Positions 1 to 19,242 of a DNA stretch of 20,381 nucleotides are shown piece by piece. The stretch spans positions 1-20,381 of IMG/VR virus record IMGVR_UViG_3300043469_000259. The stretch is one strand, 5' to 3'. The translations under genes and the position numbers were made by a program. How positions within the stretch are numbered: the first letter of the stretch is position 1; every line of letters starts with the position of its first letter. Under the pieces are notes generated by a model. That model saw only the letters and a list, made by a program, of their open reading frames with translations. It was not told where the DNA came from and did no database searches. This DNA is from a virus.

Positions 1-3000
1 TACAACTCTTGCAATTTCATTAGGGTTTGATTCTGACAATACATTAACATTGATACTATAATTATACACTGAGTCCCCTACTGAATCTCCATTATTTATT
101 GCTTTCATTTTATCTATACCTTGAGATTGGACTGCATACTTGCTCATAACAAATTCTCCTGGGGTAAGCATTGCAGGAACTGTGTCGGTTCCCTTTGCAT
201 ATCCTCCAGAATTAAACAAACTTGAAACAAATCCACCTGAAGAAAAAGTTGGAACCTGTTTACGGGGATAATTACCATAACCAGTACCAAAGTTAGGGTT
301 TGAAGTATTGAATAGTTGTGCTTGTTCATTGAATTTGAGATCTCCTGCAGCAAGTGCTTCTGCTTCCTCCTTGTCTTTGAGTTCTGCTGCTGCTTTAGCA
401 ACTGCTGCTGCCTTTACGGCTGCTACTTTGACAGGATCAGTTTCTGCTGGGACTGGATAATCTGGAATTTCATAACCAATAACCTCTCCACGACTATTCT
501 TGATTGGCTGAGGTTGAAGAGTTAAAGAGTTTGATCCTCGTCTATCAGTGTCGGAGACGACATCAGTCGGACCTCCAAAAGACCTAGAACCATAATCTCC
601 TATATTCTCTTTGGTTTTTAAAGCACGATATAAAGCCCAAGAAGTTCCTGTCCAACTATAAAAATAAAAAAAGTTGTCATCTGCTAGTGCTGTTGCATCG
701 GGACGATTGTTGTAGTCTAGTAATGGGTGGGTTTGAGCCCTCTCTGCATTTAGTTGTCCTCTCTGACTTTTTTCGCTAATTCTTCTAAAATCATCGTCTA
801 GTCCTGCTTCTCTTAGTTTTGCGCGTTGAGCGATATTCAATCCTTTGTCGCCGTAATTTCCATATTCAGTTTTTCTAGGATCTGGCAGTCCAAGTGCTAT
901 GATTTTATCTATATATGTTTGATCAAATGCAGCATCTGCTGCTGCGGTTTGTGCATTGATGCTTTGCTCAGTTGATATCAATGATGCTTTATTTGCTGCA
1001 TCCCCTTGTTTTAGGTTTTTGGTTTCATTTCCACCTGCACCATTTCCACCTGCACCATTTCCACCTGCACCATTTCCACCTGCACCATTTCCACCTGCAC
1101 CATTTCCATCCCATGTTCCTAGGCCTTGACTTGCTGGGGCTGTACTATCTGCTGTTACCTTTGCTGCTTTTGCTGTTGCAACTTTTGCTTTTGCTGCATC
1201 AACTTTCTTAGACAGTTCTGAAAACTTACCAGCCTCACCTTTGTTTGTTGCATCTTTAAATGCCCTTTCTGCATCAGCCAATTCTTTTTCTGCAACAGTT
1301 AGTGCCTGATCTGCTGCTGCTTGTTGTTGAGTCTTGTTTTTTGCATCAAGAACTCCCTGTGGAGTTTTATTGTATGCTTTTAACTTATCAAGAACGGATT
1401 GCCACTTCTTATCAATTGCATCTGTTGATGCAAGGAGTACTCCAAGTTGTTTATCCAGGTCTTTACCTGCTAAAGTATTAGCATCTATTCTTGCCTTTAT
1501 TCTATCCCAACTATATCTTGTTTGATCTAATACTGTTATCTCATCAACAAGTTTATCTATTTGTTCTTGAATTAAAGTGTTGGCATATGTTAAATCTTCA
1601 ATTTTATCTTCTAGAGGCTCTAGTTGCTTTGTTTGAATCTCTAATATTTTATCTTCTTTATCTCTAATCTTAAGAAGTGCTCCTTCACGAAGTTCTTCTA
1701 GTCTATAAATTTCATCTTGCTTAACTCTTATTTGTTCTTGGATTGCAACTCTTCCAGGGTCTGTCTCCATTCTATAAAGTTGTTGAGATATTTCAAACTG
1801 ACGGCTTTGTATATCCTTTTCACTTAACCCGCTTTGTGGCCCACGAAGCCCATCAATCTCATTTTTTCTTGCTTGCTCTAAAGCATCTGAAGCATCTGTC
1901 TGAAGTCTTCCTGCTGCATCTGCACGGTTTGCTTGCATTGCTTGTGCAGCAGATGAGATATCTCCCTTTGATAATGCATCCGCAAGATCGAGTTGCCCCT
2001 TTTGTTGACTTAATATTCCATCATTAATATTTGAAACCTTTTGAAGCGCTTCTGCTTGCTTGTCATATTTTTCATTAATCTTTTCTGCTGCATTAGAAAT
2101 TAAGGCTAAGTCATTTGATAGAGTGGTATTTTCTGTATTTAGTTTTTCCATAGCACGATCACCAAAGATGGGATTCATTTCTAGGTCTCTATTTAAATCA
2201 TTTACTTCTTCTGATAAACTCTCAATTGGTCTTGAATAATTTTTTTCAATTGCTCTTTGATCTTTTTCAATTTCACGATTAATTAGTTCAATTTGTCTTC
2301 TAAATATTGCTGCAGATGCTTCTGCTTCTTTAATTGATTTGTTATTAGCATTCATTGTGTCAACCATTGCAGTTGTTCTTGGGTCTGCACCAGTTCTTAG
2401 CAGGCTTTCTTGAACAGCAAACATTTCATCTACAAGTTCGAGTCCTGGTTTAGCAGACTCAGAGAATTGTCCAGCATTAAATTTAATTTGAATATCAATA
2501 ATCTTTTTAGCCTCAATAGAGTTTAAATAATTTGCTATCTCTTCAGAATCAACCTTTCCATCTTTAAGGTCTTCAATTAAATGTCTTGCAAGTGCTGGGT
2601 CATTTAATACCTCTGTCATCTGGTCTGCAGAAAATCCTGCAAGTTGCATTGCTGTTGAAAGTTTTGGCATTTGCTCAAGTAGTTTAAACTCTTCATTTGC
2701 CATAATCATTTTTTGGCTAAGTGCAAATCTTTCAGTCTCAGATGCAGCCTTTTTTAAATCTTCAATGTACTGTTTTCTTTCTGGACTTCCAACTTTACCA
2801 AGAGCACCTGATGCAATTGCTGCTGCAGTGGCTGCATCTTGAACATGCTCTAGTGCTTCTGTTGCACTTGCTCCACTTGCAATTAGCATTTTAAATGCTG
2901 TTTCTTGGTTTGTAATTTGCTCTACTGTTTCTCTATTAACAACATTGGCTTCTCCAACTATCGCCTCATTGTATGTCTTCATCATTTTTACACCAGTAGG

Positions 3001-6000
3001 AGTAAGTCCTTCAATATTTGCTTTTGTTTTTGGTAGGGCTTTTCCTTTTTTATCTTTTTTAAACTTAAAGATTGCTTTATCCCCCGTGAGTTTTGCTAAC
3101 TCATTAAAGTCTTTTGCAGACATCCCCATAATCATATCTCTAAATTCTTTTGGAACCTTCATTCCTATCATTCTTTGTTGAAGGCCATCAAACATCTTAA
3201 ATGCAGTAGACATGTCTTTCTTTACTTTTGGATTACTAAATGCAGCAAGCATAGACTGTAATGGTTTTGTTGCATCAAATGCACCATCACGAACATTCTT
3301 AATACGCATAGCAAGATCATCAAGGAAGTCTAGAGGGTTTGATCCACCTACTTTAGGAGTTGCTGCAGGCACATCTGCTCCAACAGAAGTTACTCCTCCT
3401 AATCCTGACATTTCAAGTTTTTCAACTGCAAAATCACTATCTGAAAGAAGTTTTAATGCTGCAACATTTTTTGCTAAAATTGCTACATAAGCATCGGAGC
3501 CAATTGCAATTCCGTCTATATATGCTTGATTCATAGCCTGCTGAGCAGCAAGAAATTCTATATCTGCAGTACGGGTTTTATCGTTTACTGTAGCCTCATA
3601 TATCTGCTGTGCTGCAAGTTTTTGCAAGTACTCTGTTTGTTGCTCAAGAGTTCCTTTCTTAAACTGTTCCATTCTATCTTCGTTCTTTTCTAATGCATCG
3701 GTTGCAGCCTTCATATTTGGAGAGACATCGGCAGAGGCATCAACGGTCTTGCCATCTTCTGAGGCTAAAGATGTTTTGCCAGCCTTCTTAGCATCTTCTT
3801 TTATTTTTTCAAGTGCTGCTTGCTCTTTCTTGATTGTTTCAAGTCCTGCAAGGCCTATGGTTGTAACCATAATCTCAAAGTCAATTGTATTTCCATCTAG
3901 AGCCTGAATACTTTTTAGGGTTTCCATCATTGAGTCAAACTGCGCTGGATCTTTCTTTTTCATTACCATTTCTGTAATAATTGAAGTTGCTTGTTTTTTA
4001 CCCTCTGAAGTACCAAATCCTGAAAACATACCAAACAATTCTTTTGTTTTGGATGTACCCTTTGTTTTAATTGCTGCGTTTAGCAAGAAATCCATTTCGT
4101 TTAACTTGCCACTGAACAGATCCATATAACTTGTTGCTTCTGATGGACTCAAAACCTTGCTTCCAACAAGCATTTCCATTTTTGCCTGGAATTGTTGTGC
4201 TCCTTTTTCTCCAGCAAGACCAGTAGTTACATTCTTACCCAGTTCGGAATTGTACTCTCCATAAGTAGTATCATTTACAAGGTTTTTAGTTTTCTTTAAA
4301 AATGTTTTAGAAGCCTCTTCTTGATCTGTACCCTTGTATGTTGACTCAACCTGTGCTTTAGATGCATCAAAGTATGCATCCTCACGCATTGCTTGCTTAC
4401 CCCAAACAGAACCACTATAAACTTTATCAAAACTTGCTGCACTTCTATTTATTTGTGAAAGAACTTGATCATTCATAAATTGAGTGTCTTTTACATTCTG
4501 AGCATTAAGTGCAGAAAGTTGTGTTTCAATCTCTAATTTCTTTTGTGCATTTGCTGTTGATGCTAACTCTGCTTCTAATTTTTGTTTTGCAGTTTCATAC
4601 TCAACCTGTACCTGGTCTGCCATCATTGTTGCCAACTCTAAGTTGTTCATATTTAATGCTGCAAGTGCTGCTACTTCTTTTCTTGCTCCTTGTCCAAATC
4701 CTGACTTTGATGCAACATTATCTTCAAGGTTATTGGTTCTTTGTCCTGCCTTTGCCATTATTGCAACTCTGGCTTTCATAGGTTCCTTTTCTAGATCTTC
4801 ACCATCAGGTCCAATCAGTGAGGTTAGTTGACCAATAACCTGCATTTCAAGTTTTGCATCTTTAAGTTCTATAGCCAAGGCTGCTGCGATGCTGTTTGCT
4901 GCGTTACTGTCTAAAACTCCATCTGCAACTCCTGTTGCAAGTTTTAATGCTAGATCTGATACTGCTTTATCTTGGCCAAACTCTTTAACATTTTTTTGAA
5001 AAAGTTCTTTTTCTTTTTTGCCAGGTTCTGATCCTAAAAATTGTTTTCCAAATATATCGTCAATCTTAACTGCTTCATCATACTTTCCATACTGGCTTTT
5101 TTCTCTACGCTTATCCATTTTTTCAGATGCGCCAACCCTACCAGTCATTTCTCCTATTGCCTTTAATCCACTTCTTGTTGCTGAAAGATCTTTTGCAAAC
5201 TGTGCTGCTTTGCCAGCCATAGCATTAAGGTGCTTATTAAATAGGTATGCTCCTGCTGCTACGGCTGCTAGGGCTACTACAATACCCTGCGGTCCTGTCA
5301 ATCCCGCAATCATTGGGGCGAACTGTGCAACAGTTGCTGCGCCACCAAGTGCTGCTGTTACTTGTGGTGGTGCTCCTGCCATACCAGCAACCATTGCTGC
5401 TGTACCTAATGCTCCTGCAGCCTTTCCAGAAACCTTTCCAACCTTTTCTTTACGCATTCCACGTTTCTTTTTGCCTAGTTGACTCTTCGTAAGAGTTGTA
5501 GGTTGTCCAGTTTCTGGATCAAAAAGTATCTGCCCCTTCTTGTCCCTTGTGTAGGTTGATGCTTCATCATAGGCTTCTACAGATCCCATTGCTGTTGCTG
5601 GGTTTACATAATTATTATTTGTTTGTGCTCCTGCAGGGATAATTCCATTTTCTGCTGCAAGTCTTGCTGCTTCGTCTGCATTATTTTTTGTAAGCCTATC
5701 TCTCTCTATCTTCTTTTGTTTTTCAATTTCTTCATTTACTTTTGCAATGCTTTCTGAAGAGTTTGCAATATTTTCTTGTGCTATTCCAGTTGCCCCTGTT
5801 GCTTGAAGAACTTCTCCAAGATTTCCAGTTGTTGCATTTGTTATTTGTGCACCAGTTAAAAGGTTTTCTGTATTTTGTGTTTGAGCATCAAGGGCATCGC
5901 TAGTTACATTTGCAAGTTCATCTGTTTTTTCTGCAACTAATACTGTTGACTTTGCTGTATCAGTGGTACCCTCAGCAATAACTTTCTTTGCTTTTTTAAC

Positions 6001-9000
6001 TGATGGGGTTAGGCTTGATTTTTCTTTTGCTTCTGATGTTGATCCTACTCTTGCTCTAGCACCAAGTTTTCTTCTTTGTCTATCTTCTGATTTAAGAATT
6101 TGTCTCTCTTCATAGTCTTCTGGATTATTAAGGTCATCATAGAATGCCTTGTTTCCAACATCCATCTTTTCATTTATTACTTCTGTTGGAACTGCAGTGT
6201 TACCAAGTGTTGAAGATTGTGCAGATACTCCTGCCTGCCCTTCTTTCATTCCAAGAGTTAAACCTTCTGCAACTTCTTTTCCTGCTTCAATGGCTTTTCT
6301 AGATGGTGAGTCTGCTGCTGTTCCAGCCTCGCTTCTAACTCCATCAATTGCTGCTTGACCAACGGTGGCTCCTTGTGATCTAGCATCTGTAACGGCTGCT
6401 TCATCTACTTCTATAAAATTACCTTGGCCACCAGGCCTTCTTACTTCTGTGCCACCTGTTTGATATGTTCCTCGCTCATTGTATTTTGGTTTATCTGCTG
6501 TATAGGCTTCACCTTTAACGTTTGTTTCACCTCTAGCAACTGCATCTGCGTTGGCAATTGCCTTCTGTTCTGCGTCCATGTGGAGCCTTACTCCAGTAAC
6601 CGTTTCTCTTGCTACTTTAAAAACTTGACCAAGTTCAGTATCTAGTCCAGCAACCTGAGAACGAACAGTTTGCTCAATTCCTTGAAATACTACGTCGTCA
6701 AATATTTGCCCTGGGTTGGCCTGCTTCCATCGTGTAACTTCTTGTAAAAGTCTATCATCATATACTTGTAATGCTCCAGACAGTTGTTCAAAGTTTCCAC
6801 CACCGATTTCAACTGCTTTTGACCATTTTGAAACTCCAGTTGCTGAAAAGTCTTCCAAGAAAGCATCAATTGTTGGAACAGTATTTCCTGGAATATCTTT
6901 ATATTTTTTAATCTCTGGGGATCCATCGGCCATTGCTTTATTTATTTGCCCCTGAAGCATGTATACTGGGCTGGCGGTAGGCATTGCAACATTGGTTCCA
7001 TTTGCTTGATTACTTGCTTCAATTGCTCTTTGAAGATTTAAAAGTTCTGATTGCGTTTTTTCATGTGTTATGTTTATAGTTCTAGATAACTGATCAATTG
7101 GAATTGAAGTAGATGTTTCAGCATGGGAAAACTGCTGAACTTGTTGTTGGCTTGCTCTAGGATTGTAAAATTTATGTAGGCTTGCATCTGCCCCTGCAGT
7201 TCCTACTTTTTTAGTTGCCGTAGATGCTCCAGAAGCAGTTAATTGCCTACCTCTACTTTCTGCAGCATCTGCTGCTGATTCAATAACACTTTTTACGCTA
7301 CTAACCAAAGATGCTCTTAACTGCTCTAAACTTGCTTCACTACTATCAGTTACTGTTCTGCCAGTTGCTTGTGCGTAGGCAATAAGTTTTTCTGCAGAAG
7401 TTTTATTAATAAACTCAAATTGTTTACCAATTTCATCTGCTACACCTGCTGAATCATTAGAGCGACTAGCCATCTGACTAATAAAGGTTTGTTGATCACC
7501 AGTAACAACTCTTCCAGTTCCTTGATTATATCTTTTTACGGATCCATTTTGAAGTGCTGCTACTAATTCTGGATTATCCTTTGCAGTCTGCTTAGTGATA
7601 ACAACTTCCCCAGGAGTAAGCAATGCTGGGACTGTATCTTTGTTTCCGCTACCTGGGACTACTCCACCCTGTGCAAACTTCTTTGGAGGTAGACCTGCTA
7701 CTGCTCCTGCTGGTCCTGGTACTGAGTTAAATAGTCCTGGTGATGATTGTGCAAGTGCTCTTGCCTGAGTTGCTGCATTTCCATATGCTGCAGCAAGTGC
7801 ATTAACGGATGCCTGCTCAACATTGAATGTAGAAATTAATTGACTGTGAGATGTGTGTAGGGCATTAGATTGTGCAAGGTTTTCAATCTGCTGATTAGTT
7901 AAATAATCAAATCCGCTACCAAGAACATTGCTTGAACCATTAAGTTTGGCAATTCCTCCACGAAGCATAGCAAAAAATTTAATTAAGTTAGCAACTCCGT
8001 TAGCAAGAATACCAAATGTCATCAAAGCAATTGGGGCTAATCCGCCAATCACACCAATCATAATTGCTATTACTTTTTTTGTTCCGTCACTTAAACCATT
8101 AAACTTTTCTAGGATCTTTCCAACAAAGTTAACAATTGGAGTTACTGCTTGCAAGAATGCCTTACCTACGGGAACAAGTTGAAGTTTAAGGTTTTCCATA
8201 GACTTCTTAAATTTGTTACCAGTCATGTCTTCAACCTTGCCAAGTTCTCGCTCAGACAAGATTGCTAATTCTTCAACTGATGCCCCAGCAAGTCCAAGGG
8301 CTCTTGCAGCCTGTGAAGAATCTTTTGTTACGTTTTGAAATAATGTAGAAAGACGAGCAAACTGGAACTTACCAAATAGTTGTTCAATTGCTCTTGCACG
8401 GTTAAGAGGATCTAGTGTATCAAGTGCTCTTGCAAATCCTACAACAGTTCCTTTTAGATCTCCCTTATTTGCTTCAACAAGACCAGTAATATTTATTCCA
8501 AGATCGGCAAGGAATTCACTAGCCTTCTTAGAAGGATTAATCATAGAAGCAAGACCAGACTTAAGTGCGTTAGCACCTTCTGATGCGTTAATTCCACCTT
8601 CCTTCATCGCAGTCATAAAGAATGCTAGGTCTTCTACAGATCCACCAAGTTGCTTTATAACTGGTCCAGCCTTTGGAACAGCAATTGTTAAATCCTCAAT
8701 AGAAAGAACAGTTTGGTTTTCTACTGCGTTAAGGAAGTTAATTTTTCTTGCAAGATCTTCTGTTGCAATTCCAAAAGCATTTGTTAAAGAAATTGTTGTT
8801 TCTAAGGCCTGTTGTTGCTCAACTTGACCAAGGACTGAAAGTCGTGTTGCCTGAATTACTTGAGAATTAAGCGCGTCTCCAGTAAGACCCATTGCTGCTG
8901 CTGAAGCAGCCATTTCAACAGTATCTTTTACTGCAATTCCATATTTAGTAAATTCTTTTCCAAGTCTTTGAATGTCTGCAATTGCTTTATCAGTTGCATC

Positions 9001-9726
9001 TCCACCTGTGAACATGTCTCCATAAACTCTTGTAAACTTTGTAACAGCCTGTTCCATTTCCATGAATGTTTTTGCTGCTGTAGAGCCAAGAATAGAAAGA
9101 GGAATAGTCAAACCAACCATTAACTGGCGACCTGCCCACTGAGTATTCTTACCAAAATTTAGGAGTTGAGTTGAGCCTTGGCTTAATAACTTATTTAAAA
9201 ATTGCTGTCTTTGTGCAGCCATTTGCATACGTGTTGCATAATCTGCATACTGGCCATTGACCATCTTAAGGTGCTTTGGAACTACCTGAAGAGTCTTGAT
9301 CATGTCTCCATTTGCAGACTGCATCTGAATATACTGAGACTGTAGAAGTTTTACTCTGTCTTTACTAGCACGGGTTAATGTCTCACGCTCTTGTGCAAAC
9401 ATCCCTTTAAATACCTTGGTATTTTGCGTTGCTGCTGCTGCGGTGTACCTAAAGTACTGTCGCATTGACATTTGATTTTTTTCAAGTGCTTGCGTGAAAG
9501 AAGATGTACTTGAGGCTACATCTTTTTGAGTTGCAACAAACTTTCCAGTTGCATTAATAGCCTGCATTAACTGGCTATTAAGGCCCTTCTGGGCATTCAT
9601 TGCTGCAACATTACCCTGAGTTAGGGTTTGATTAAAACGGCTGAGTCCAGACTGTAACTGACGTAATTGTGCTAAGGCTTGACTGGTATCAAAATTAATA
9701 CCAATATTTGCATTTACGTCAGCCAA
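1..9726 (-). CDS. Tape measure protein, very large, 3' end outside window
   Basis: This protein sets tail length and is ejected with the DNA. The reading frame is open from 9726 to the window edge, 3242 codons, so the C-terminus is missing. The start is TTG at 9726: a stop (TGA) sits directly before it in frame, and AGAGGTG lies 6 bases upstream. Residues about 190-600 look like the PhageMin_Tail core, ending in a hydrophobic stretch at about 543-582. A second hydrophobic Ala/Gly-rich segment is at about 1430-1500. A long charged coiled coil runs at about 2635-2780 and a GAGGN repeat linker at about 2874-2900. The family motif with DTVPALLTPGE occurs near residue 695 and again near 3180. The visible end resembles the usual tape measure C-terminus, so probably little is missing. 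At roughly 1.5 angstrom per residue it predicts a tail near 490 nm. It follows the two chaperone genes, the usual position. Confidence 0.93.
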   Translation of the reverse strand, partial: MADVNANIGINFDTSQALAQLRQLQSGLSRFNQTLTQGNVAAMNAQKGLNSQLMQAINATGKFVATQKDVASSTSSFTQALEKNQMSMRQYFRYTAAAATQNTKVFKGMFAQERETLTRASKDRVKLLQSQYIQMQSANGDMIKTLQVVPKHLKMVNGQYADYATRMQMAAQRQQFLNKLLSQGSTQLLNFGKNTQWAGRQLMVGLTIPLSILGSTAAKTFMEMEQAVTKFTRVYGDMFTGGDATDKAIADIQRLGKEFTKYGIAVKDTVEMAASAAAMGLTGDALNSQVIQATRLSVLGQVEQQQALETTISLTNAFGIATEDLARKINFLNAVENQTVLSIEDLTIAVPKAGPVIKQLGGSVEDLAFFMTAMKEGGINASEGANALKSGLASMINPSKKASEFLADLGINITGLVEANKGDLKGTVVGFARALDTLDPLNRARAIEQLFGKFQFARLSTLFQNVTKDSSQAARALGLAGASVEELAILSERELGKVEDMTGNKFKKSMENLKLQLVPVGKAFLQAVTPIVNFVGKILEKFNGLSDGTKKVIAIMIGVIGGLAPIALMTFGILANGVANLIKFFAMLRGGIAKLNGSSNVLGSGFDYLTNQQIENLAQSNALHTSHSQLISTFNVEQASVNALAAAYGNAATQARALAQSSPGLFNSVPGPAGAVAGLPPKKFAQGGVVPGSGNKDTVPALLTPGEVVITKQTAKDNPELVAALQNGSVKRYNQGTGRVVTGDQQTFISQMASRSNDSAGVADEIGKQFEFINKTSAEKLIAYAQATGRTVTDSSEASLEQLRASLVSSVKSVIESAADAAESRGRQLTASGASTATKKVGTAGADASLHKFYNPRASQQQVQQFSHAETSTSIPIDQLSRTINITHEKTQSELLNLQRAIEASNQANGTNVAMPTASPVYMLQGQINKAMADGSPEIKKYKDIPGNTVPTIDAFLEDFSATGVSKWSKAVEIGGGNFEQLSGALQVYDDRLLQEVTRWKQANPGQIFDDVVFQGIEQTVRSQVAGLDTELGQVFKVARETVTGVRLHMDAEQKAIANADAVARGETNVKGEAYTADKPKYNERGTYQTGGTEVRRPGGQGNFIEVDEAAVTDARSQGATVGQAAIDGVRSEAGTAADSPSRKAIEAGKEVAEGLTLGMKEGQAGVSAQSSTLGNTAVPTEVINEKMDVGNKAFYDDLNNPEDYEERQILKSEDRQRRKLGARARVGSTSEAKEKSSLTPSVKKAKKVIAEGTTDTAKSTVLVAEKTDELANVTSDALDAQTQNTENLLTGAQITNATTGNLGEVLQATGATGIAQENIANSSESIAKVNEEIEKQKKIERDRLTKNNADEAARLAAENGIIPAGAQTNNNYVNPATAMGSVEAYDEASTYTRDKKGQILFDPETGQPTTLTKSQLGKKKRGMRKEKVGKVSGKAAGALGTAAMVAGMAGAPPQVTAALGGAATVAQFAPMIAGLTGPQGIVVALAAVAAGAYLFNKHLNAMAGKAAQFAKDLSATRSGLKAIGEMTGRVGASEKMDKRREKSQYGKYDEAVKIDDIFGKQFLGSEPGKKEKELFQKNVKEFGQDKAVSDLALKLATGVADGVLDSNAANSIAAALAIELKDAKLEMQVIGQLTSLIGPDGEDLEKEPMKARVAIMAKAGQRTNNLEDNVASKSGFGQGARKEVAALAALNMNNLELATMMADQVQVEYETAKQKLEAELASTANAQKKLEIETQLSALNAQNVKDTQFMNDQVLSQINRSAASFDKVYSGSVWGKQAMREDAYFDASKAQVESTYKGTDQEEASKTFLKKTKNLVNDTTYGEYNSELGKNVTTGLAGEKGAQQFQAKMEMLVGSKVLSPSEATSYMDLFSGKLNEMDFLLNAAIKTKGTSKTKELFGMFSGFGTSEGKKQATSIITEMVMKKKDPAQFDSMMETLKSIQALDGNTIDFEIMVTTIGLAGLETIKKEQAALEKIKEDAKKAGKTSLASEDGKTVDASADVSPNMKAATDALEKNEDRMEQFKKGTLEQQTEYLQKLAAQQIYEATVNDKTRTADIEFLAAQQAMNQAYIDGIAIGSDAYVAILAKNVAALKLLSDSDFAVEKLEMSGLGGVTSVGADVPAATPKVGGSNPLDFLDDLAMRIKNVRDGAFDATKPLQSMLAAFSNPKVKKDMSTAFKMFDGLQQRMIGMKVPKEFRDMIMGMSAKDFNELAKLTGDKAIFKFKKDKKGKALPKTKANIEGLTPTGVKMMKTYNEAIVGEANVVNRETVEQITNQETAFKMLIASGASATEALEHVQDAATAAAIASGALGKVGSPERKQYIEDLKKAASETERFALSQKMIMANEEFKLLEQMPKLSTAMQLAGFSADQMTEVLNDPALARHLIEDLKDGKVDSEEIANYLNSIEAKKIIDIQIKFNAGQFSESAKPGLELVDEMFAVQESLLRTGADPRTTAMVDTMNANNKSIKEAEASAAIFRRQIELINREIEKDQRAIEKNYSRPIESLSEEVNDLNRDLEMNPIFGDRAMEKLNTENTTLSNDLALISNAAEKINEKYDKQAEALQKVSNINDGILSQQKGQLDLADALSKGDISSAAQAMQANRADAAGRLQTDASDALEQARKNEIDGLRGPQSGLSEKDIQSRQFEISQQLYRMETDPGRVAIQEQIRVKQDEIYRLEELREGALLKIRDKEDKILEIQTKQLEPLEDKIEDLTYANTLIQEQIDKLVDEITVLDQTRYSWDRIKARIDANTLAGKDLDKQLGVLLASTDAIDKKWQSVLDKLKAYNKTPQGVLDAKNKTQQQAAADQALTVAEKELADAERAFKDATNKGEAGKFSELSKKVDAAKAKVATAKAAKVTADSTAPASQGLGTWDGNGAGGNGAGGNGAGGNGAGGNGAGGNETKNLKQGDAANKASLISTEQSINAQTAAADAAFDQTYIDKIIALGLPDPRKTEYGNYGDKGLNIAQRAKLREAGLDDDFRRISEKSQRGQLNAERAQTHPLLDYNNRPDATALADDNFFYFYSWTGTSWALYRALKTKENIGDYGSRSFGGPTDVVSDTDRRGSNSLTLQPQPIKNSRGEVIGYEIPDYPVPAETDPVKVAAVKAAAVAKAAAELKDKEEAEALAAGDLKFNEQAQLFNTSNPNFGTGYGNYPRKQVPTFSSGGFVSSLFNSGGYAKGTDTVPAMLTPGEFVMSKYAVQSQGIDKMKAINNGDSVGDSVYNYSINVNVLSESNPNEIARVV
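1027..1107 (-). repeat. Five perfect 15-base tandem repeats inside the tape measure gene
   Basis: The plus-strand unit ATTTCCACCTGCACC repeats five times without mismatch (1027-1101), then a partial unit follows (1102-1107). In the coding frame this gives repeated GAGGN pentapeptides, a flexible glycine-rich linker. Because the unit is a multiple of three, copy number can change without breaking the frame. Perfect DNA identity suggests recent expansion. Confidence 0.95.
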
Positions 9727-9739: not shown

Positions 9740-10063
9740 TTACTTGATTGAGTTTAAAAGACCTGTTGTATCAGAAAGTTGCATTCCTGAAGCAGCATCA
9801 ATGATCTTATAGACTGTAGGAAGATCTAGATTTTCCTCAATCGCCTCTCTGTTGTCTGCTATTGCAGGCAAATATTGTTTAAATGCAATTTGTACGCAGT
9901 CAATTAAAACATCCATAGACTTAGTGTTGTCTTCTGCGACTTCCTGAAGTTTAGTAAACTGCTCCATAAATGGCTTTAGTAGAGATATTTTTAGTGGCTT
10001 AATCTGAAACTTTGTTCCATCAATAAGTGATAATTCGTTCTTGCTTTCTGCTTCTTTAACCAT
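9740..10063 (-). CDS. Short tail assembly chaperone (first-domain only)
   Basis: A 107-residue protein, probably the lambda gpG-type chaperone that keeps the tape measure soluble while the tube assembles. It is clearly paralogous to the first domain of the gene just upstream: both have DG at residues 15-16 and PLKI at 23-26, then a Cys near 55, KQ near 62, a conserved Pro, and a DLxxxY(K/D)I(I/L)D block at 80-90. It lacks the second domain of the longer protein. I chose ATG 10063 over ATG 10075 because GGAGG lies 5 bases before 10063 while the earlier ATG is fused to this site. It ends 13 bases before the tape measure start. Near its 3' end lies an in-phase T TTA AAC heptamer. The chaperone role is inferred from position and from paralogy. 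Confidence 0.8.
   Translation of the reverse strand: MVKEAESKNELSLIDGTKFQIKPLKISLLKPFMEQFTKLQEVAEDNTKSMDVLIDCVQIAFKQYLPAIADNREAIEENLDLPTVYKIIDAASGMQLSDTTGLLNSIK
9752..9758 (-). other. Canonical slippery heptamer T TTA AAC, possible -1 frameshift site
   Basis: The coding strand of the short chaperone reads CTT TTA AAC near its end, so T TTA AAC fits the X XXY YYZ rule in the correct phase. A -1 slip would replace the last four residues by twelve others and stop at 9714, overlapping the tape measure start. I see no obvious stimulatory stem-loop or pseudoknot downstream. The location, at the 3' end of a tail chaperone gene, is where such sites are known in many phages. Confidence 0.4.
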
Positions 10064-10087
10064 GATTTCCTCCATTGTAGTTGTTTA

Positions 10088-10096
10088 ATTATACCA
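10088..10096 (-). promoter_or_regulatory. Extended -10 promoter candidate TGGTATAAT
   Basis: It lies in the gap between the long and short chaperone genes. The coding strand has TG-N-TATAAT, then 24 bases to ATG 10063, giving a leader of about 18 bases that includes the GGAGG ribosome site. No convincing -35 box is visible. The same TGGTATA core occurs before 10796 and 19226. Confidence 0.45.
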
Positions 10097-10112
10097 TAAG
10101 CAGGCTTATTTT

Positions 10113-10796
10113 TTACTCTATTCTTTCATAGGATAGGCCCATACCAATTCCAAACCCAGCCCTTTGTGCGTTAATCCCTTGAAGAGCAACAATATCTTTT
10201 GAGTTGGCTGCTTGCCCACCACTAAATACTCTAGCCTTCATTTCTTCCCAGGCATTACTCTTTTGAGTATTCTTGTCTAGGTCGACCCCTTGCATTGCTG
10301 CAAGAAATTTCTTTTCATCGTAGTTTAGTTCTCTGCCTATAGATAATGTTATCATTAATTCTGGCATAGATAATGATCTTTCTAGTTCGTCGTAGTCTTT
10401 CCATATCCCCAGCAAAAATACTTCAGACTCTAGTTTTGCAAGGTCAAGGTCTTCCCAAGAAGACCCACTGTCTACAGCCTGTTTTTTAATTGGCTCTTCT
10501 GATTTTTCATTAATTTTAATACCAGCAGTTACATCTAAAATATCATATATGTTTTGCAAGTCAACATACTCTTCTAGCATTTCCTGGCTTTGAGTAATCT
10601 CTGGCCTAAACTGTTTCATACAAACCCTTGCACATTTTGACAAAGCAATAATGGCTTCAAGGTCTCCTTTAGAGTTTCTGACATCATCAAAAATATCCAT
10701 TAACTGTCTAAGATATTTTATTTTTAATGGAGACAGTTCTATTTCTACCCCATCTTGCAGAGTAATATTTTTTGTATTATATACCGTTGTTGCCAT
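10113..10796 (-). CDS. Long tail assembly chaperone (two domains)
   Basis: A 227-residue protein, probably the counterpart of the lambda gpGT frameshift product but made as one continuous frame. Residues 1-97 match the short chaperone nearly without gaps (DG 15-16, PLKI 23-26, KQF 61-63, DLQNIYDILD 79-88). A polar linker (98-112) leads to a second domain at about 113-175 with WEDLDLAKLE and SMPELMITLSIGRELNYDEKK, which I take as the T-like part. The C-terminal tail is Gly-rich. I chose ATG 10796; the upstream in-frame TTG at 10826 sits inside a terminator stem. No Shine-Dalgarno precedes ATG 10796, but TATACT ends six bases before it, consistent with a leaderless transcript. It lies between the tube and tape measure genes, the standard chaperone position. 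Confidence 0.8.
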   Translation of the reverse strand: MATTVYNTKNITLQDGVEIELSPLKIKYLRQLMDIFDDVRNSKGDLEAIIALSKCARVCMKQFRPEITQSQEMLEEYVDLQNIYDILDVTAGIKINEKSEEPIKKQAVDSGSSWEDLDLAKLESEVFLLGIWKDYDELERSLSMPELMITLSIGRELNYDEKKFLAAMQGVDLDKNTQKSNAWEEMKARVFSGGQAANSKDIVALQGINAQRAGFGIGMGLSYERIE

Positions 10797-10802
10797 TATA
10801 CA

Positions 10803-10811
10803 AGTATACCA
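10803..10811 (-). promoter_or_regulatory. Extended -10 promoter candidate TGGTATACT, leaderless geometry
   Basis: TG-G-TATACT lies just downstream of the tube-gene terminator. Six bases separate TATACT from ATG 10796, so transcription would begin at or next to the A of the start codon. This fits the absence of a ribosome site. The ten-base string TGGTATACTT is identical before the gene at 19226. Confidence 0.5.
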
Positions 10812-10843
10812 AAGAGAAAGGCCCAATCCCGAAGGATTGAGCC
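10811..10843 (-). terminator. Rho-independent terminator after the tube gene, UUCG loop
   Basis: The minus-strand RNA has a ten-pair stem, GGCUCAAUCC with GGAUUGGGCC (one U-G wobble), closed by a C(UUCG)G tetraloop. A pyrimidine-rich UUUCUCUUU run follows. It starts 20 bases after the tail tube stop codon, so it would separate the highly expressed tube gene from the chaperone genes. Confidence 0.85.
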
Positions 10844-10862
10844 TGTCCCATATTAAGTTATA

Positions 10863-11489
10863 TTATGATGCTGCTGGGATGGTACGATCTACGATCTTAC
10901 CGTATGATGCGTCATCATTTGGAAGAAGACGGAATGATACTTCGAACATTGTCGCTTCGTCTCTCTTTGCAGATACTGTAACGCTTTCAATTGAAAGTGC
11001 ACGGTATGCTACGTAAACTCTTTCGAGTTCATCTGATGCTGCACATTCGCCAGTTCCTGGACCAACTGCAACCAAACCGCGTTCGACTGGGCATTCGCCG
11101 ATGTCTCCTGCTGAAAGATTAAGTGTTGGGTTTCCTGATACTGTGTTGAGATCTGAATCTTTACCTGCAAGGGCAAAGAGAAGATTCTCTAGTGTTGATT
11201 CTGCGAATGTAGTATTTAGGTTTACCTGCATGCCTTGCTTGAACAACTTAGCAACGTCAAGAACCTGATCTACTGCAACCTCACCAAAGTCTGGTTGGAA
11301 TTCAATTTCCAAACCATTCATTGTGTAACCAACGTTACGGAAATCTGCATCATTTGACAAAGTTGTCTTGTATGATACGTCTTCTGCGTATGCTGGAAGG
11401 GCTGCTTCTGTAAGTACGCCTGCTTCATGTGTGAAGAGGGCTGCTGCTCCAACAATAATATTGTTGCTGCTACCACGTGTATATGCCAT
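10863..11489 (-). CDS. Major tail tube protein
   Basis: A 208-residue protein, proposed as the subunit of the tail tube that polymerises around the tape measure and forms the DNA channel. It starts with a Gly/Asn-rich segment, has alternating beta-strand-like stretches (for example LNTTFAESTLENLLFALAG and the C-terminal ATMFEVSFRLLPND), and has the size and soluble character usual for siphovirus tube proteins. GAGGTGA lies 6 bases before ATG 11489. It has its own gap upstream with a hairpin and a strong terminator downstream, fitting an abundant protein that needs separate dosage. The order terminator gene, tube, chaperones, tape measure supports the call, which rests on context as well as sequence. 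Confidence 0.82.
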   Translation of the reverse strand: MAYTRGSSNNIIVGAAALFTHEAGVLTEAALPAYAEDVSYKTTLSNDADFRNVGYTMNGLEIEFQPDFGEVAVDQVLDVAKLFKQGMQVNLNTTFAESTLENLLFALAGKDSDLNTVSGNPTLNLSAGDIGECPVERGLVAVGPGTGECAASDELERVYVAYRALSIESVTVSAKRDEATMFEVSFRLLPNDDASYGKIVDRTIPAAS

Positions 11490-15862: not shown

Positions 15863-16423
15863 TTAATTAAATAAGTCGGCTGTTTTGAGGAAACTACCGC
15901 CCCATAGGGATTTTTCAACCGTTTCAGGTTGATTCTGTACTATCTCGCCGAGATCGCCAGACTTTCGGAAAGCAGTGTCTTGCTCTACAAGTTCCACACG
16001 CTTACCAAATTCATTGAATCCACTTGATACTGTTGCAATATCTTTTGCAACTGCTTCAAATGAACTTTTTGCTGTTTCAACATCAACCTTTGAAGACTTA
16101 AGCATTTCTACTTCTGCCTGCAATGAGTTAACCTTTGAAACTAGATCGCTAAAGGCTGATTCTAGAGTGTTCTTGATTTCTACAGTTGAATCAACTGCTT
16201 CATCTGATTTAGATACTTCTGTAACTTCTTCAACTACGTCAACTGCAGAAGTCTCTTCAGACTTTGCAATCTCTTCAGATGCTGGGGCTTCATCAGCCTT
16301 AATAACATCTTCTGTAGTTGTTTCAACTACTGCATCAACCTCTGGAGCGACCTCTGACTTTTCTACTTCTACTGCTGCTTCTGTTTCAAGAACTTCTGCA
16401 ACTGCTTCTGTCTTTTCTGTCAT
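15863..16423 (-). CDS. Nested capsid scaffold protein, in-frame internal start
   Basis: A 186-residue product predicted from an internal ATG at codon 252 of the protease gene. AAGGAGGT stands 7 bases before it, far better than the protease's own start, which lacks such a site. The product is acidic at first (MTEKTEAVAEV and many Glu/Val repeats), then a predicted coiled coil (residues about 95-150), then a short C-terminal segment ending in LFN that could bind the capsid. This composition is typical of scaffolds. The arrangement matches lambda, where Nu3 is the C-terminal part of protease C and starts inside it. Assembly would use many free copies plus a few fused to protease. Confidence 0.75.
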   Translation of the reverse strand: MTEKTEAVAEVLETEAAVEVEKSEVAPEVDAVVETTTEDVIKADEAPASEEIAKSEETSAVDVVEEVTEVSKSDEAVDSTVEIKNTLESAFSDLVSKVNSLQAEVEMLKSSKVDVETAKSSFEAVAKDIATVSSGFNEFGKRVELVEQDTAFRKSGDLGEIVQNQPETVEKSLWGGSFLKTADLFN

Positions 16424-17176
16424 AGGTTGTACCTCCTTGTTAATCTTAGAAGTATTAATGCCTTTAGCACTATCAACTAAGAATTTTATCATTGTTACTT
16501 TTTCTTTATCCGTTTTTTCAACGAAACCTATATTTTCCATTTGTTCACCGTTTATTGGACTAGTTTCTGACTCATTCTCAGATGCCAAAACTATACCATT
16601 TGCTTTATCGTAAAAAACATTTTCTAAAACTGTTGCGTCACCCTTAAATACATCTACTCCGTCTACCTTTTCAACAGATACAATGTTTGCAAATTGATTT
16701 GCTGGGGAATCTACAAGACTCAACTCAACTAAATCATATTCTTTAATAACTCTAATTTGTGTGTCTGACTTTTCATCATATGCGTCATCCCACTTATTCA
16801 TTCTTCCGCCAATAGAAAAACCAGTTAGCGTTCCATCTAGAACTTTTTCCCAAGTATCTTGTGCACCTTTTGAAACATATGCGGAGACAAAAACACCCTT
16901 ATAAAACTTCTTTGATTCTGGATCAAAGTACTTGTCTTCTTTAAAGTTAACCATCTTGCCTACTGCTAGTGGTTGGTGCATTTCTCTAATGTTCCCACGG
17001 AATTTTGCAAATGCTGCCATTGATGCTTCTGCTGTTACGATGTCATCTTGCTTATCAATATTGTCAAGTGATGCAAAGCCTGAGACGATTCTTCGCTCTT
17101 TATCTACCTTACTAAAAGGCATCGAAAGTCGGAGATTATCTCCCTCTGAATTCCAGTGTGCTTTAGATATAATCAT
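15863..17176 (-). CDS. Prohead protease (XkdF-like) fused to a scaffold region
   Basis: A 437-residue protein. Residues 1-170 look like an XkdF/S78-type capsid maturation serine protease: His67 in EMHQP, Ser121 in TGFSIGG, and an acidic residue in ELSLVDSPAN (Glu151 or Asp156) as the likely third member. Residues 171-250 link to a very acidic Val/Ala/Glu-rich stretch (252-345), then a coiled-coil-like helix (about 346-400) and a C-terminal tail with KSLWGGSFLKTADLF. An internal ATG at codon 252 with a strong ribosome site should make the last 186 residues alone as scaffold. This gene has no Shine-Dalgarno; TATAAT lies nine bases before its ATG. It sits between portal and capsid genes as in PBSX. 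Confidence 0.87.
   Translation of the reverse strand: MIISKAHWNSEGDNLRLSMPFSKVDKERRIVSGFASLDNIDKQDDIVTAEASMAAFAKFRGNIREMHQPLAVGKMVNFKEDKYFDPESKKFYKGVFVSAYVSKGAQDTWEKVLDGTLTGFSIGGRMNKWDDAYDEKSDTQIRVIKEYDLVELSLVDSPANQFANIVSVEKVDGVDVFKGDATVLENVFYDKANGIVLASENESETSPINGEQMENIGFVEKTDKEKVTMIKFLVDSAKGINTSKINKEVQPMTEKTEAVAEVLETEAAVEVEKSEVAPEVDAVVETTTEDVIKADEAPASEEIAKSEETSAVDVVEEVTEVSKSDEAVDSTVEIKNTLESAFSDLVSKVNSLQAEVEMLKSSKVDVETAKSSFEAVAKDIATVSSGFNEFGKRVELVEQDTAFRKSGDLGEIVQNQPETVEKSLWGGSFLKTADLFN
16431..16438 (-). promoter_or_regulatory. Internal ribosome binding site AAGGAGGT for the nested scaffold
   Basis: The coding strand reads AAGGAGGT, seven bases, then ATG at 16423 in the protease frame. An anti-Shine-Dalgarno match of eight bases at ideal spacing inside a coding region is unlikely to be chance. 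Confidence 0.85.
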
Positions 17177-17214: not shown

Positions 17215-18822
17215 CTATTTGGACATATCGGACACATCGTCAACTTTACGACCTTCGCCTTTTGGATTTCTTCCACTTACTGTGGCTGGTCCGTCAGACT
17301 GGTTATTAGTTCTTTCTGTGTCTCTTTGTCTATCTGCATTATCATTTGCTGTGTCTTGAGGTTTTGGATCGAAAGGCTCGTTACCGCCTTCAATCTGTGG
17401 AAGACCAAGAAGTTCTCTACCTTCATTTGGTAGCATAACCTGAGTCTTAACAAGTCTTTCAATTATTTGTGATTGAGCAATTTCATCTGTAAGAGTAAGT
17501 TCGTTAAACTTAAACTCCAAGATATCTGTTTTTTCTCTTATAATCTTGTTAATCATTTTCTCAAGATTTCTTTGTGCTGGTCTTGCAACTTGCTCTTTAA
17601 ATGTGCGGTCTTGAGATAGGGCTGCAGCGATGGCTGCTGAATCAGAACCACCAATTTTAGAAAGAGGAACTTGATGTGCAACAAGAATATCATCTCTGTT
17701 TTGTTTGCGATACTCTTTAAATGATGCCTCTTGAATTCCATTTTCTACAGGATCCATCTTAAACTCTACCTTGTTGGTATCTGAATCTCCAGGAAGTGGA
17801 ATATATAGTGTTCTATGATTTTGTCCTTTAAGACCACTTTGAAGAAATCTAAACATTTTATCTTCTGCCTCAGCAGATAGTTTTGCTCCCTTAAGCGTTA
17901 CAACATATCTTGGCGTTGCTTTATTCTGGAAGTAGTCAATATTGTATTGTGATGCAAGTTGATCTCCGTGAAGCGATCCAATCGCAGACATGATATCTGG
18001 AACGCCATAAAAAGTATTTAGTGGTGAGTATTCTTTAAAATGAATAATCTCATTTGGACGAGCATCTGTTCCAAGTGGATTTGCATTTGTTGCTCCAAAG
18101 TTACGGAAGTAAACTACTTTGTTTGCAATGACCTGAACAAAGCCATCACGAAGACGACGAACACGCATTGTTGTAGATGGGATATGACCAACATATCCAA
18201 TGTCCCCACGAACTGTTCTTCCTACTTCAAGGTATCCATTTCCTGTTGCTTGTAGATCAGTAAACACCTTTTCCATGGTTGTAGTAAAGGAGTCTTCTGT
18301 ATTTAGAGATTCTAGCCAATCGCTTAACTCAATCTTGGCTCTTTCAATTCTTCTACGTGCATTTTCTGCTGTCTTTGGTTCTGATGCTTCTAACTTAAGC
18401 ATTGTTCTTTTAGAAACCTTAAACTCATAACCAAGCCCAACAATATTTTCTACCTTGGCATCAATTGCTGCGTGGTTTGCAAATGAAGTATCATAGAAAC
18501 TTGCAAGTTCGTAAAGATTCCATGGTGGAGTAATTACATCGAATAGTCCGTAAGCATTTCTAAATACTGTTCCTGAGTTAATCTCTTTGGACTTTGCTCC
18601 GTCACGACCAGTGCTTTCTGCTCTTGAACTTTCTATGTATGCTGGTGTTGCTTCACCCTTTAGTACACGAGTTGTTCTTCTTTTAAAGTTTGCATCAAGT
18701 CCCTGCAAATCTTTGACTACATCCCATGACTGATTAAATGGATCTTGCTTTGTAAAAGTGTCATCTTCAGGAAGTGGACTATCTGTCTTTGCTCTAATAA
18801 AAAATTCTTTGTCTTCACTCAT
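17215..18822 (-). CDS. Portal protein, PBSX type
   Basis: A 535-residue protein forming the dodecameric ring at the unique capsid vertex, through which DNA enters and leaves and on which the terminase and adaptor dock. Residues about 95-190 hold the wing region (ITPPWNLYELASFYDTSFAN start), residues about 255-300 the conserved IIHFKEYSPLNTFYGVPDIM segment, and residues about 300-470 a stretch very like PBSX portals (DQLASQYNIDYFQNKATPRY, ILVAHQVPLSKIGG, then a long helix). The C-terminus is Asp/Asn/Arg-rich and probably disordered. Length is normal for the family. The ATG overlaps the stop of the preceding small gene by one base (TAATG), so translation is likely coupled. It is followed by the protease gene, as in PBSX. 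Confidence 0.93.
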   Translation of the reverse strand: MSEDKEFFIRAKTDSPLPEDDTFTKQDPFNQSWDVVKDLQGLDANFKRRTTRVLKGEATPAYIESSRAESTGRDGAKSKEINSGTVFRNAYGLFDVITPPWNLYELASFYDTSFANHAAIDAKVENIVGLGYEFKVSKRTMLKLEASEPKTAENARRRIERAKIELSDWLESLNTEDSFTTTMEKVFTDLQATGNGYLEVGRTVRGDIGYVGHIPSTTMRVRRLRDGFVQVIANKVVYFRNFGATNANPLGTDARPNEIIHFKEYSPLNTFYGVPDIMSAIGSLHGDQLASQYNIDYFQNKATPRYVVTLKGAKLSAEAEDKMFRFLQSGLKGQNHRTLYIPLPGDSDTNKVEFKMDPVENGIQEASFKEYRKQNRDDILVAHQVPLSKIGGSDSAAIAAALSQDRTFKEQVARPAQRNLEKMINKIIREKTDILEFKFNELTLTDEIAQSQIIERLVKTQVMLPNEGRELLGLPQIEGGNEPFDPKPQDTANDNADRQRDTERTNNQSDGPATVSGRNPKGEGRKVDDVSDMSK

Positions 18823-19226
18823 TAGTCATCACTTCCATATTTTGCAATAGTATCCTTGGCTGCTTGTACTGCACCAAGATCGTTCATAGATGGAATTAAT
18901 CCTTCTGCCATTCTTTGTTTTTGCTCAGAGTATTCTTCTTCTGAGATTCTGGTTAGACCTGGAACGAAGATGCATTCTCCATCTCCTTCATCCCCGTAAT
19001 ATCTTGCTGCTTCTTTAAGTTTTGATATTTGAAGGATATCTCCTTTCATTGATTCAATGTTTAAAACAGAACCAGTTCCATCCGTAAACCACTTACCGTT
19101 AGCCTTTTTGTAAACATAAAGACCCCAGTCATAGTGTTTTTCAATAATTTTTGCACGGGACTCTCCCACTTGCCCTTTCATTCTGGGCAATTGCTTCTTC
19201 TTTTTACGCGGATCTTGAGGATTCAT
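18822..19226 (-). CDS. Small conserved-looking protein of unknown function before the portal
   Basis: A 134-residue protein that I do not recognise. It starts with a very basic segment (DPRKKKKQLPRMKG), has a central part with YDWGLYVYKKANGKWFTDG and a second half with helices (KLKEAARYYGDEGDGE, then SEEEYSEQKQRMAEG), and ends acidic. No signal peptide or membrane segment is seen. It has no Shine-Dalgarno; TGGTATACT ends seven bases before ATG 19226, the pattern of a leaderless start. Its stop overlaps the portal ATG by one base, so it is made together with the portal and may assist packaging or portal function. That role is inference only. Confidence 0.78.
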   Translation of the reverse strand: MNPQDPRKKKKQLPRMKGQVGESRAKIIEKHYDWGLYVYKKANGKWFTDGTGSVLNIESMKGDILQISKLKEAARYYGDEGDGECIFVPGLTRISEEEYSEQKQRMAEGLIPSMNDLGAVQAAKDTIAKYGSDD

Positions 19227-19233
19227 ACCTATA

Positions 19234-19242
19234 AGTATACCA
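19234..19242 (-). promoter_or_regulatory. Extended -10 promoter candidate TGGTATACT before the portal operon
   Basis: TG-G-TATACT sits in the 18-base gap after the preceding gene, seven bases before ATG 19226. The spacing predicts transcription starting at or within a base or so of the start codon. It shares ten bases exactly with the element before the long chaperone gene. Confidence 0.5.

Follow-up and report, generated by a model that had tools for sequence, protein, structure and literature searches.

In most long-tailed phages, the tail chaperones gpG and gpGT are produced by a programmed frameshift. Few recoding events in tailed phages are as conserved as this -1 frameshift, and the usual reason given for it is the need for a fixed ratio of the two forms. 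The two forms in lambda share an N-terminal domain to which the long form adds a C-terminal domain, and they are encoded between the major tail protein and the tape measure. The lambda short form is in large excess, at 30:1 (PMC5009743), and both forms are absent from the virion. In the published model, many gpG and one gpGT sit on the tape measure, and the T domain binds the tail tube protein (PMC5009743).

There is a precedent for encoding the two forms separately: Vladimirov, Gautam and Davidson (2022, Virology 566:9) reportedly described distinct short and fused long chaperone genes in T4-like phages. The same arrangement is attributed to some T4-like phages in articles that cite it (PMC10885494, PMC12846349). 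As described there, one gene encodes the short form and another a continuous fused long form, with no frameshifting, which is in principle the solution seen here; the phage group is a different one, and the comparison is one of descriptions. Some Microbacterium phages are described as having two ORFs without an evident frameshift (PMC7302621), a departure from frameshifting within the actinobacteriophages, but a fused long form with a paralog is not reported in that description.

Also close to our locus are the chaperone genes of Streptomyces phages in the family Stanwilliamsviridae (for example Blueeyedbeauty gp36/gp37 and Francob gp36/gp37), with homologous G and T domains (36-44% identity) in the same neighbourhood. 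They have a single G, preceded by a promoter and a Shine-Dalgarno sequence, no third gene, and a T that is read in the -1 frame, in most cases past a C_CCA_AAT site. Here we analyze a 20,381-nucleotide stretch of a viral contig (IMG/VR record IMGVR_UViG_3300043469_000259, positions 1 to 20,381; hereafter the window), in which sequence comparison makes it likely that the -1 programmed frameshift of the tail chaperone module was replaced by gene duplication. No described case in the window's clade was found in the open-access literature.

Composition and identity of the chaperone genes

The tail module of the window is ordered on the minus strand as major tail protein, long ORF, short ORF and tape measure, with the following features:

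10863..11489, minus strand: major tail protein gene, directly upstream of the chaperone genes (phrog_2175, E 1.9e-32; phrog_885 major tail protein, E 0.0018)
10819..10844, minus strand: terminator-like hairpin between the major tail protein gene and the long chaperone gene
10803..10811, minus strand: extended -10 TGGTATACT, exactly 6 nt before the ATG at 10796; predicted leaderless promoter of the long gene
10113..10796, minus strand: long chaperone gene (GT-like), 227 aa, with G-like and T-like domains in a single uninterrupted frame
10506..10796, minus strand: G-like domain, residues 1-97 of the long protein, which pairs with the short protein (phrog_10504)
10461..10505, minus strand: linker of the long gene, the site of the slippery sequence and the G stop codon in split relatives
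10116..10460, minus strand: T-like domain, residues ~113-227 of the long protein (phrog_10474)
10088..10096, minus strand: extended -10 TGGTATAAT, 24 nt before the short gene start; predicted leadered promoter
9740..10075, minus strand: short ORF as called, 111 aa, from the alternative start at 10075
10069..10073, minus strand: Shine-Dalgarno GGAGG of the short gene, 5 nt before the ATG at 10063
9740..10063, minus strand: short chaperone gene, a G paralog of 107 aa when read from the probable ATG start at 10063
1..9726, minus strand: tape measure protein gene, 3242 aa, directly downstream of the short gene and open at the window edge

The initial annotation of this DNA, made from its sequence alone, had proposed that the first gene encodes both chaperone domains in one continuous frame and the second a paralog of the first domain only. 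The 227-aa ORF (10796-10113) is indeed uninterrupted, and the short ORF holds a G-like domain alone. The most likely start of the short gene is 10063, since DG and PLKI then fall at equal positions in both proteins and GGAGG lies 5 nt before it; from this start, the two proteins share D15-G16 and P23-L24-K25-I26, exactly the register given in that annotation. The tape measure call follows the annotation of the gene at the same place in Streptomyces phages. This ORF is very long (at least 3242 aa), with a run of GNGAG repeats towards the C-terminal part (~1020-1110 of the window, minus strand). Elsewhere in the window, the C-terminal half of an S78-type prohead protease ORF (15863-17176, minus strand) is long, acidic and coiled-coil-like and may act as a fused scaffold.

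By BLASTP, residues 1-97 of the long protein are 29% identical to the short protein (63% positives over 94 aa, E=2e-15), and profile-profile comparison between alignments of their relatives joins columns 1-96 with E=2e-32 and 99.9% probability. Both proteins match phrog_10504 (long E 4.7e-18, short E 3.9e-18) and the C-terminal part of the long protein matches phrog_10474 (E 1.2e-12), two families without annotation in PHROGs. The T-like domain shares 40-44% identity with the product that Streptomyces phages encode in the -1 frame. When annotated phages were searched by tblastn, both domains were found in 127 Streptomyces phage records, at one place per record, and 5 Rhodococcus phage records were added to the matches of the long protein only. 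Most of these homologues carry the annotation tail assembly chaperone, and the next ORF is labelled "hypothetical" or a second chaperone. Blueeyedbeauty, Circinus, Francob and Starbow have the order major tail protein, G, T in another frame and tape measure, and the T of Francob is annotated as a joined two-piece CDS.

AlphaFold2 models of the two proteins (mean pLDDT 78.5 and 77.3) have a beta-hairpin plus helices in common. The short model matched a viral model named tail assembly chaperone (Foldseek E=4.9e-7, TM 0.76). Among solved structures, the HK97 gp13 chaperone (2OB9) ranked first against the long model and second against the short model, in weak matches that were tied with other chains (Z 4.3 over 84 residues and Z 4.3 over 83 residues, respectively). 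Sequence profiles gave no match in the PDB, and Foldseek gave no significant PDB match to the long model. Sub-threshold matches to Pfam DUF4778 and SGTA dimerisation were dismissed as noise. Profile searches placed neither protein in an unrelated family, and the two domains are predicted to fold alike. Both are homologous to the Stanwilliamsviridae-type chaperone family (phrog_10504 plus phrog_10474), and their location between the major tail protein and the tape measure matches. The proposed identity of both genes as tail assembly chaperones is supported, mainly by sequence and gene position: homologues are annotated as such in Rhodococcus phages and, at an equal gene position, in Streptomyces phages, and the Foldseek match of the short model agrees.

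The locus resembles that of lambda in its two forms with a common N-terminal domain and in its position. Unlike in lambda, one continuous gene encodes the long form and a separate downstream paralog the short form, and the two G domains are different proteins rather than the same sequence. In the window, T does not lie in another frame overlapping the 3' end of G, as it would in a frameshift-type locus, and no slippery heptamer is in phase near the end of G.

Two arrangements among relatives and the loss of the frameshift

Relatives were collected from phage records and by five scans of viral contigs and one of genome contigs, each listing at most its best 80 loci, and were classed with profiles for the G and T domains. 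This gave at least 372 loci, among which L085 and L086 are the window itself. At least 266 loci have G and T in one ORF followed by a separate G (fused), and at least 6 more have the fused ORF alone, each with a contig end within 120 nt of the gene. At least 97 encode G and T in separate ORFs and lack a further G (split), and 1 further locus is truncated to T. Among the matches listed, no intermediate was found between the fused state with a paralog (at least 272) and the split state with a single G (at least 97), and rare intermediates may have been missed because each scan lists its best 80 loci. In whole records, ten of the fused type (~100-120 kb) have exactly two G places and six of the split type have one. 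The independent numbers are below the locus counts, as several loci are overlapping pieces of one contig; among the matches listed there are 152 distinct T sequences in the fused state and 64 in the split state, represented at 85% identity by 69 fused and 36 split loci. The clade is a large group of mostly uncultured aquatic phages related to Streptomyces phages, and the phage collection searched yielded no isolate of the fused type.

The scan of genome contigs returned a single locus, of the split type. At 110 kb and with a split-type chaperone locus, contig L241 (CAINGU010000031.1) is probably of phage origin and misplaced in the cyanobacterium genome bin that holds it. In L285, L286, L288 and L282, the split-type G carries a ~34-residue insertion mid-domain.

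The window is a metagenomic contig, and an indel introduced into a truly split gene by assembly or sequencing could produce a long frame of this kind. The chance of such an artefact is negligible and we regard it as refuted: among the matches listed, the long frame is open in 272 of 272 fused loci (at least 272 loci from many metagenomes, with 152 distinct T sequences), and the former slippery site and stop codon have been replaced, not shifted.

In all 97 split loci among the matches listed, T lies in the -1 frame and overlaps G by 18-123 nt. An in-phase slippery heptamer was found in the overlap of 31 of the 36 split representatives among the matches listed (CCCAAAT in 15, CCCAAAC in 13), and the other 5 have CCCGGAA at the slippery-site position. 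CCCGGAA in place of C_CCA_AAY occurs in Karimac-type Streptomyces phages, namely L084 and the related split loci L253, L257, L268 and L271. The linker of the fused representatives holds an in-phase XXXYYYZ heptamer in 6 of 69 cases, all of them unrelated A- or AT-runs and none of the C_CCA_AAY type; the window linker (10461..10505) has no slippery heptamer in phase. Codon identity at the junction of the fused gene is at the gene average (0.98-0.99), with no synonymous constraint and no extra codon conservation among the representatives.

Translational slippage into an early stop, as in dnaX, or a hidden frameshift could still let the long gene make its own short form, leaving the paralog to serve another purpose. 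The A-run of the window linker (ATT AAA AAA CAG), the heptamers of the six fused representatives and the early stops of both alternative frames past the junction in most relatives would fit such a mechanism. The heptamers are not conserved, however, and the fused genes have lost the C_CCA_AAY site seen in split relatives; among the matches listed, presence of the paralog coincides perfectly with loss of the split. Since no heptamer of the old type is found and the junction codons are unremarkable, a frameshift in the long gene is not indicated, and we reject this mechanism as improbable on slippery motif, alternative-frame length and codon conservation. At the level of sequence, this agrees with the initial annotation, for which a frameshift from the long gene to the short form would have been contrary evidence.

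Two further candidates were rejected. A fossil slippery site in the short paralog (in-phase C CCA AAN) was found in 0 of 69 representatives, with the D-P residues kept in 9 of 69. A fixed frame relation from the long to the short gene, as in frameshifting or coupling, does not hold, as all three relations occur (116/89/61).

A 103-row tree built from T and the major tail protein needs a single change of state (29.6 on average after shuffling), on a branch with support of 79, and the split lineages L302, L353, L363, L298 and L370 adjoin the fused clade. A tree of T, tail protein and tape measure N-terminus also gave one change with support 100/100, for 50 rows that leave out four of these five closest split lineages (L298, L302, L353 and L363), whose data were unusable there, and include flagged long branches. 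The G domains of the long genes form one clade (99) and the short paralogs another (94), the latter grouping weakly with the G of the nearest split phages. The trees give one origin of the fused state and one duplication, in keeping with the earlier proposal of gene duplication in place of the frameshift. Mean identity is 62% within the short paralogs and 50% within the long-gene G domains, and the two G domains within one locus are only ~36% identical. All three domains are under strong purifying selection (dN/dS 0.064, 0.067 and 0.128, rough values with dS near saturation).

Low pairwise identity is the one observation that would fit a short gene that is an unrelated small protein, similar by chance, or a recent duplicate that is functionless and decaying. 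We hold this to be very improbable given the comparisons above (E=2e-15 and 2e-32), the shared phrog family, a dN/dS of 0.13 and the match of its model to a tail assembly chaperone model. The paralog is always present in the clade among the matches listed, and its conservation across the 69 representatives refutes both versions.

Start signals of the two genes

The promoter, terminator and leaderless calls reported here are sequence predictions. Median Shine-Dalgarno energies were -2.9 kcal/mol for the long gene, -10.3 for the short gene, -10.2 for the split G and -2.0 for random ATGs, and the short gene had the stronger value in 66 of 69 representatives. The GGAGG duplex has an energy of -9.3 kcal/mol, as computed in L001, which encodes proteins identical to those of the window. 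The extended -10 motif TGnTATAnT lies 5-7 nt before the long-gene ATG in 54-55 of 69 representatives, at exactly 6 nt in 48; in the 14 of 69 that lack the strict motif, about half have a related -10 at similar spacing and about half one further away. Before the short gene, 68 of 69 representatives have the motif, in most cases at 25-27 nt, and 22 of 35 have it before the split G, mostly at 22-28 nt. Across the loci, 67 of ~9,305 ATGs have TGnTATAnT at 5-7 nt, of which 54 are long-gene starts and only 13 fall among the ~9,236 other ATGs. A scan for consensus -35 plus -10 promoters was uninformative at the locus, and the extended -10 search was useful.

Leaderless genes in bacteria have a TANNNT -10 box with its first T ~12 nt upstream of the start codon (PMC3160421), and among the promoter classes mapped in Mycobacterium tuberculosis the extended -10 is the strongest (PMC3898074). 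In the long gene, the -10 has its first T 12 nt upstream of the start, and no Shine-Dalgarno sequence is found. The long gene is predicted to have a leaderless-type promoter, and the short gene is predicted to keep the ancestral start type of a promoter plus a strong Shine-Dalgarno sequence. The initial annotation had expected separate promoters and ribosome sites for the two genes. Conserved sequence strongly supports separate starts, but only the short gene has a Shine-Dalgarno sequence, the long gene being of the leaderless type.

Of the 69 fused representatives, 57 have a terminator-like hairpin ahead of the long gene, compared with 9 of 690 random windows, and none was found in the gap between the two chaperone genes (0 of 69). 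In L051, L225 and L226, cargo genes lie between the pair and the short gene retains its own promoter and Shine-Dalgarno sequence, which suggests that the pair works without adjacency. The cargo, named by eye, is a class I methyltransferase-like ORF in L225 and L226 (~2212-2870) and oxygenase-like and HD-domain-like ORFs in L051 (~3708-4800). A second copy of TGGTATACT (19234-19242, minus strand) lies 7 nt before the ATG of the ORF at 18822-19226, beside the portal gene, a second predicted leaderless-type start in this phage.

Duplication may have served a division of labour, with each G domain binding its own part of the tape measure or its own partner and dosage being secondary. Their identity of ~36% within a locus, their separate clades, the higher conservation of the short G (62% vs 50%) and its weak grouping with the nearest split G would all fit. 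The conserved opposite start signals of the two genes point instead to dosage, and the folds are predicted to be alike. Specialization of this kind is compatible with duplication in place of the frameshift rather than exclusive of it, and we consider it possible, if doubtful.

Proposed origin and significance

Duplication in place of the frameshift can be laid out as a series of steps. The ancestor would have carried a terminator, promoter, Shine-Dalgarno sequence, G, slippery site, T in the -1 frame and the tape measure. In one lineage, the G copy beside the tape measure would have stayed a stand-alone gene, now the short gene, and the first G copy would have fused in frame to T as the long gene, with loss of the slippery site. 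The long gene would then have come to start right at the promoter, without leader or Shine-Dalgarno sequence. The domains, fusion, duplication, slippery-site loss and conserved signals in this series are shown by sequence.

For transcript starts, protein ratio and complex formation, we infer the following. The long protein would be scarce, its G domain joining the chaperone coat on the tape measure and its T domain recruiting the tail tube subunit, and the short protein would be the abundant form that makes up the coat. The upstream terminator would limit read-through into the long gene, the long gene would start leaderless and the short gene from a strong Shine-Dalgarno sequence, and the two promoters would act in series with no terminator between them. 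With this last arrangement, long-gene transcripts can carry the short gene and not the reverse, so more mRNA is expected for the short gene than for the long one. Actinobacteria can translate leaderless mRNAs efficiently, however, and the long form need not be made at a low level. The short:long ratio is probably set by gene expression; given the distinct conserved start signals, separate starts are its most likely basis, not frameshift efficiency. On balance we lean towards a single-step switch, in which duplication and fusion occurred together, the ratio was rebuilt by opposite start types, and the G domains then co-evolved as a heteromeric pair.

Beside the T4-like case as described, the window's clade has adjacent genes, an ancestral state that survives in relatives, a switch mapped to a single branch and opposite conserved start signals. 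What is new here is this combination, seen independently of the T4-like phages in a clade of Streptomyces phage relatives. For annotation, pairs of "hypothetical protein" genes of this kind can now be recognised in many metagenomic phage contigs. For the chaperones themselves, two identical N-terminal domains would not be required. The survival of sister lineages with and without the frameshift allows a direct question to be asked: is the frameshift itself needed, or just the ratio?
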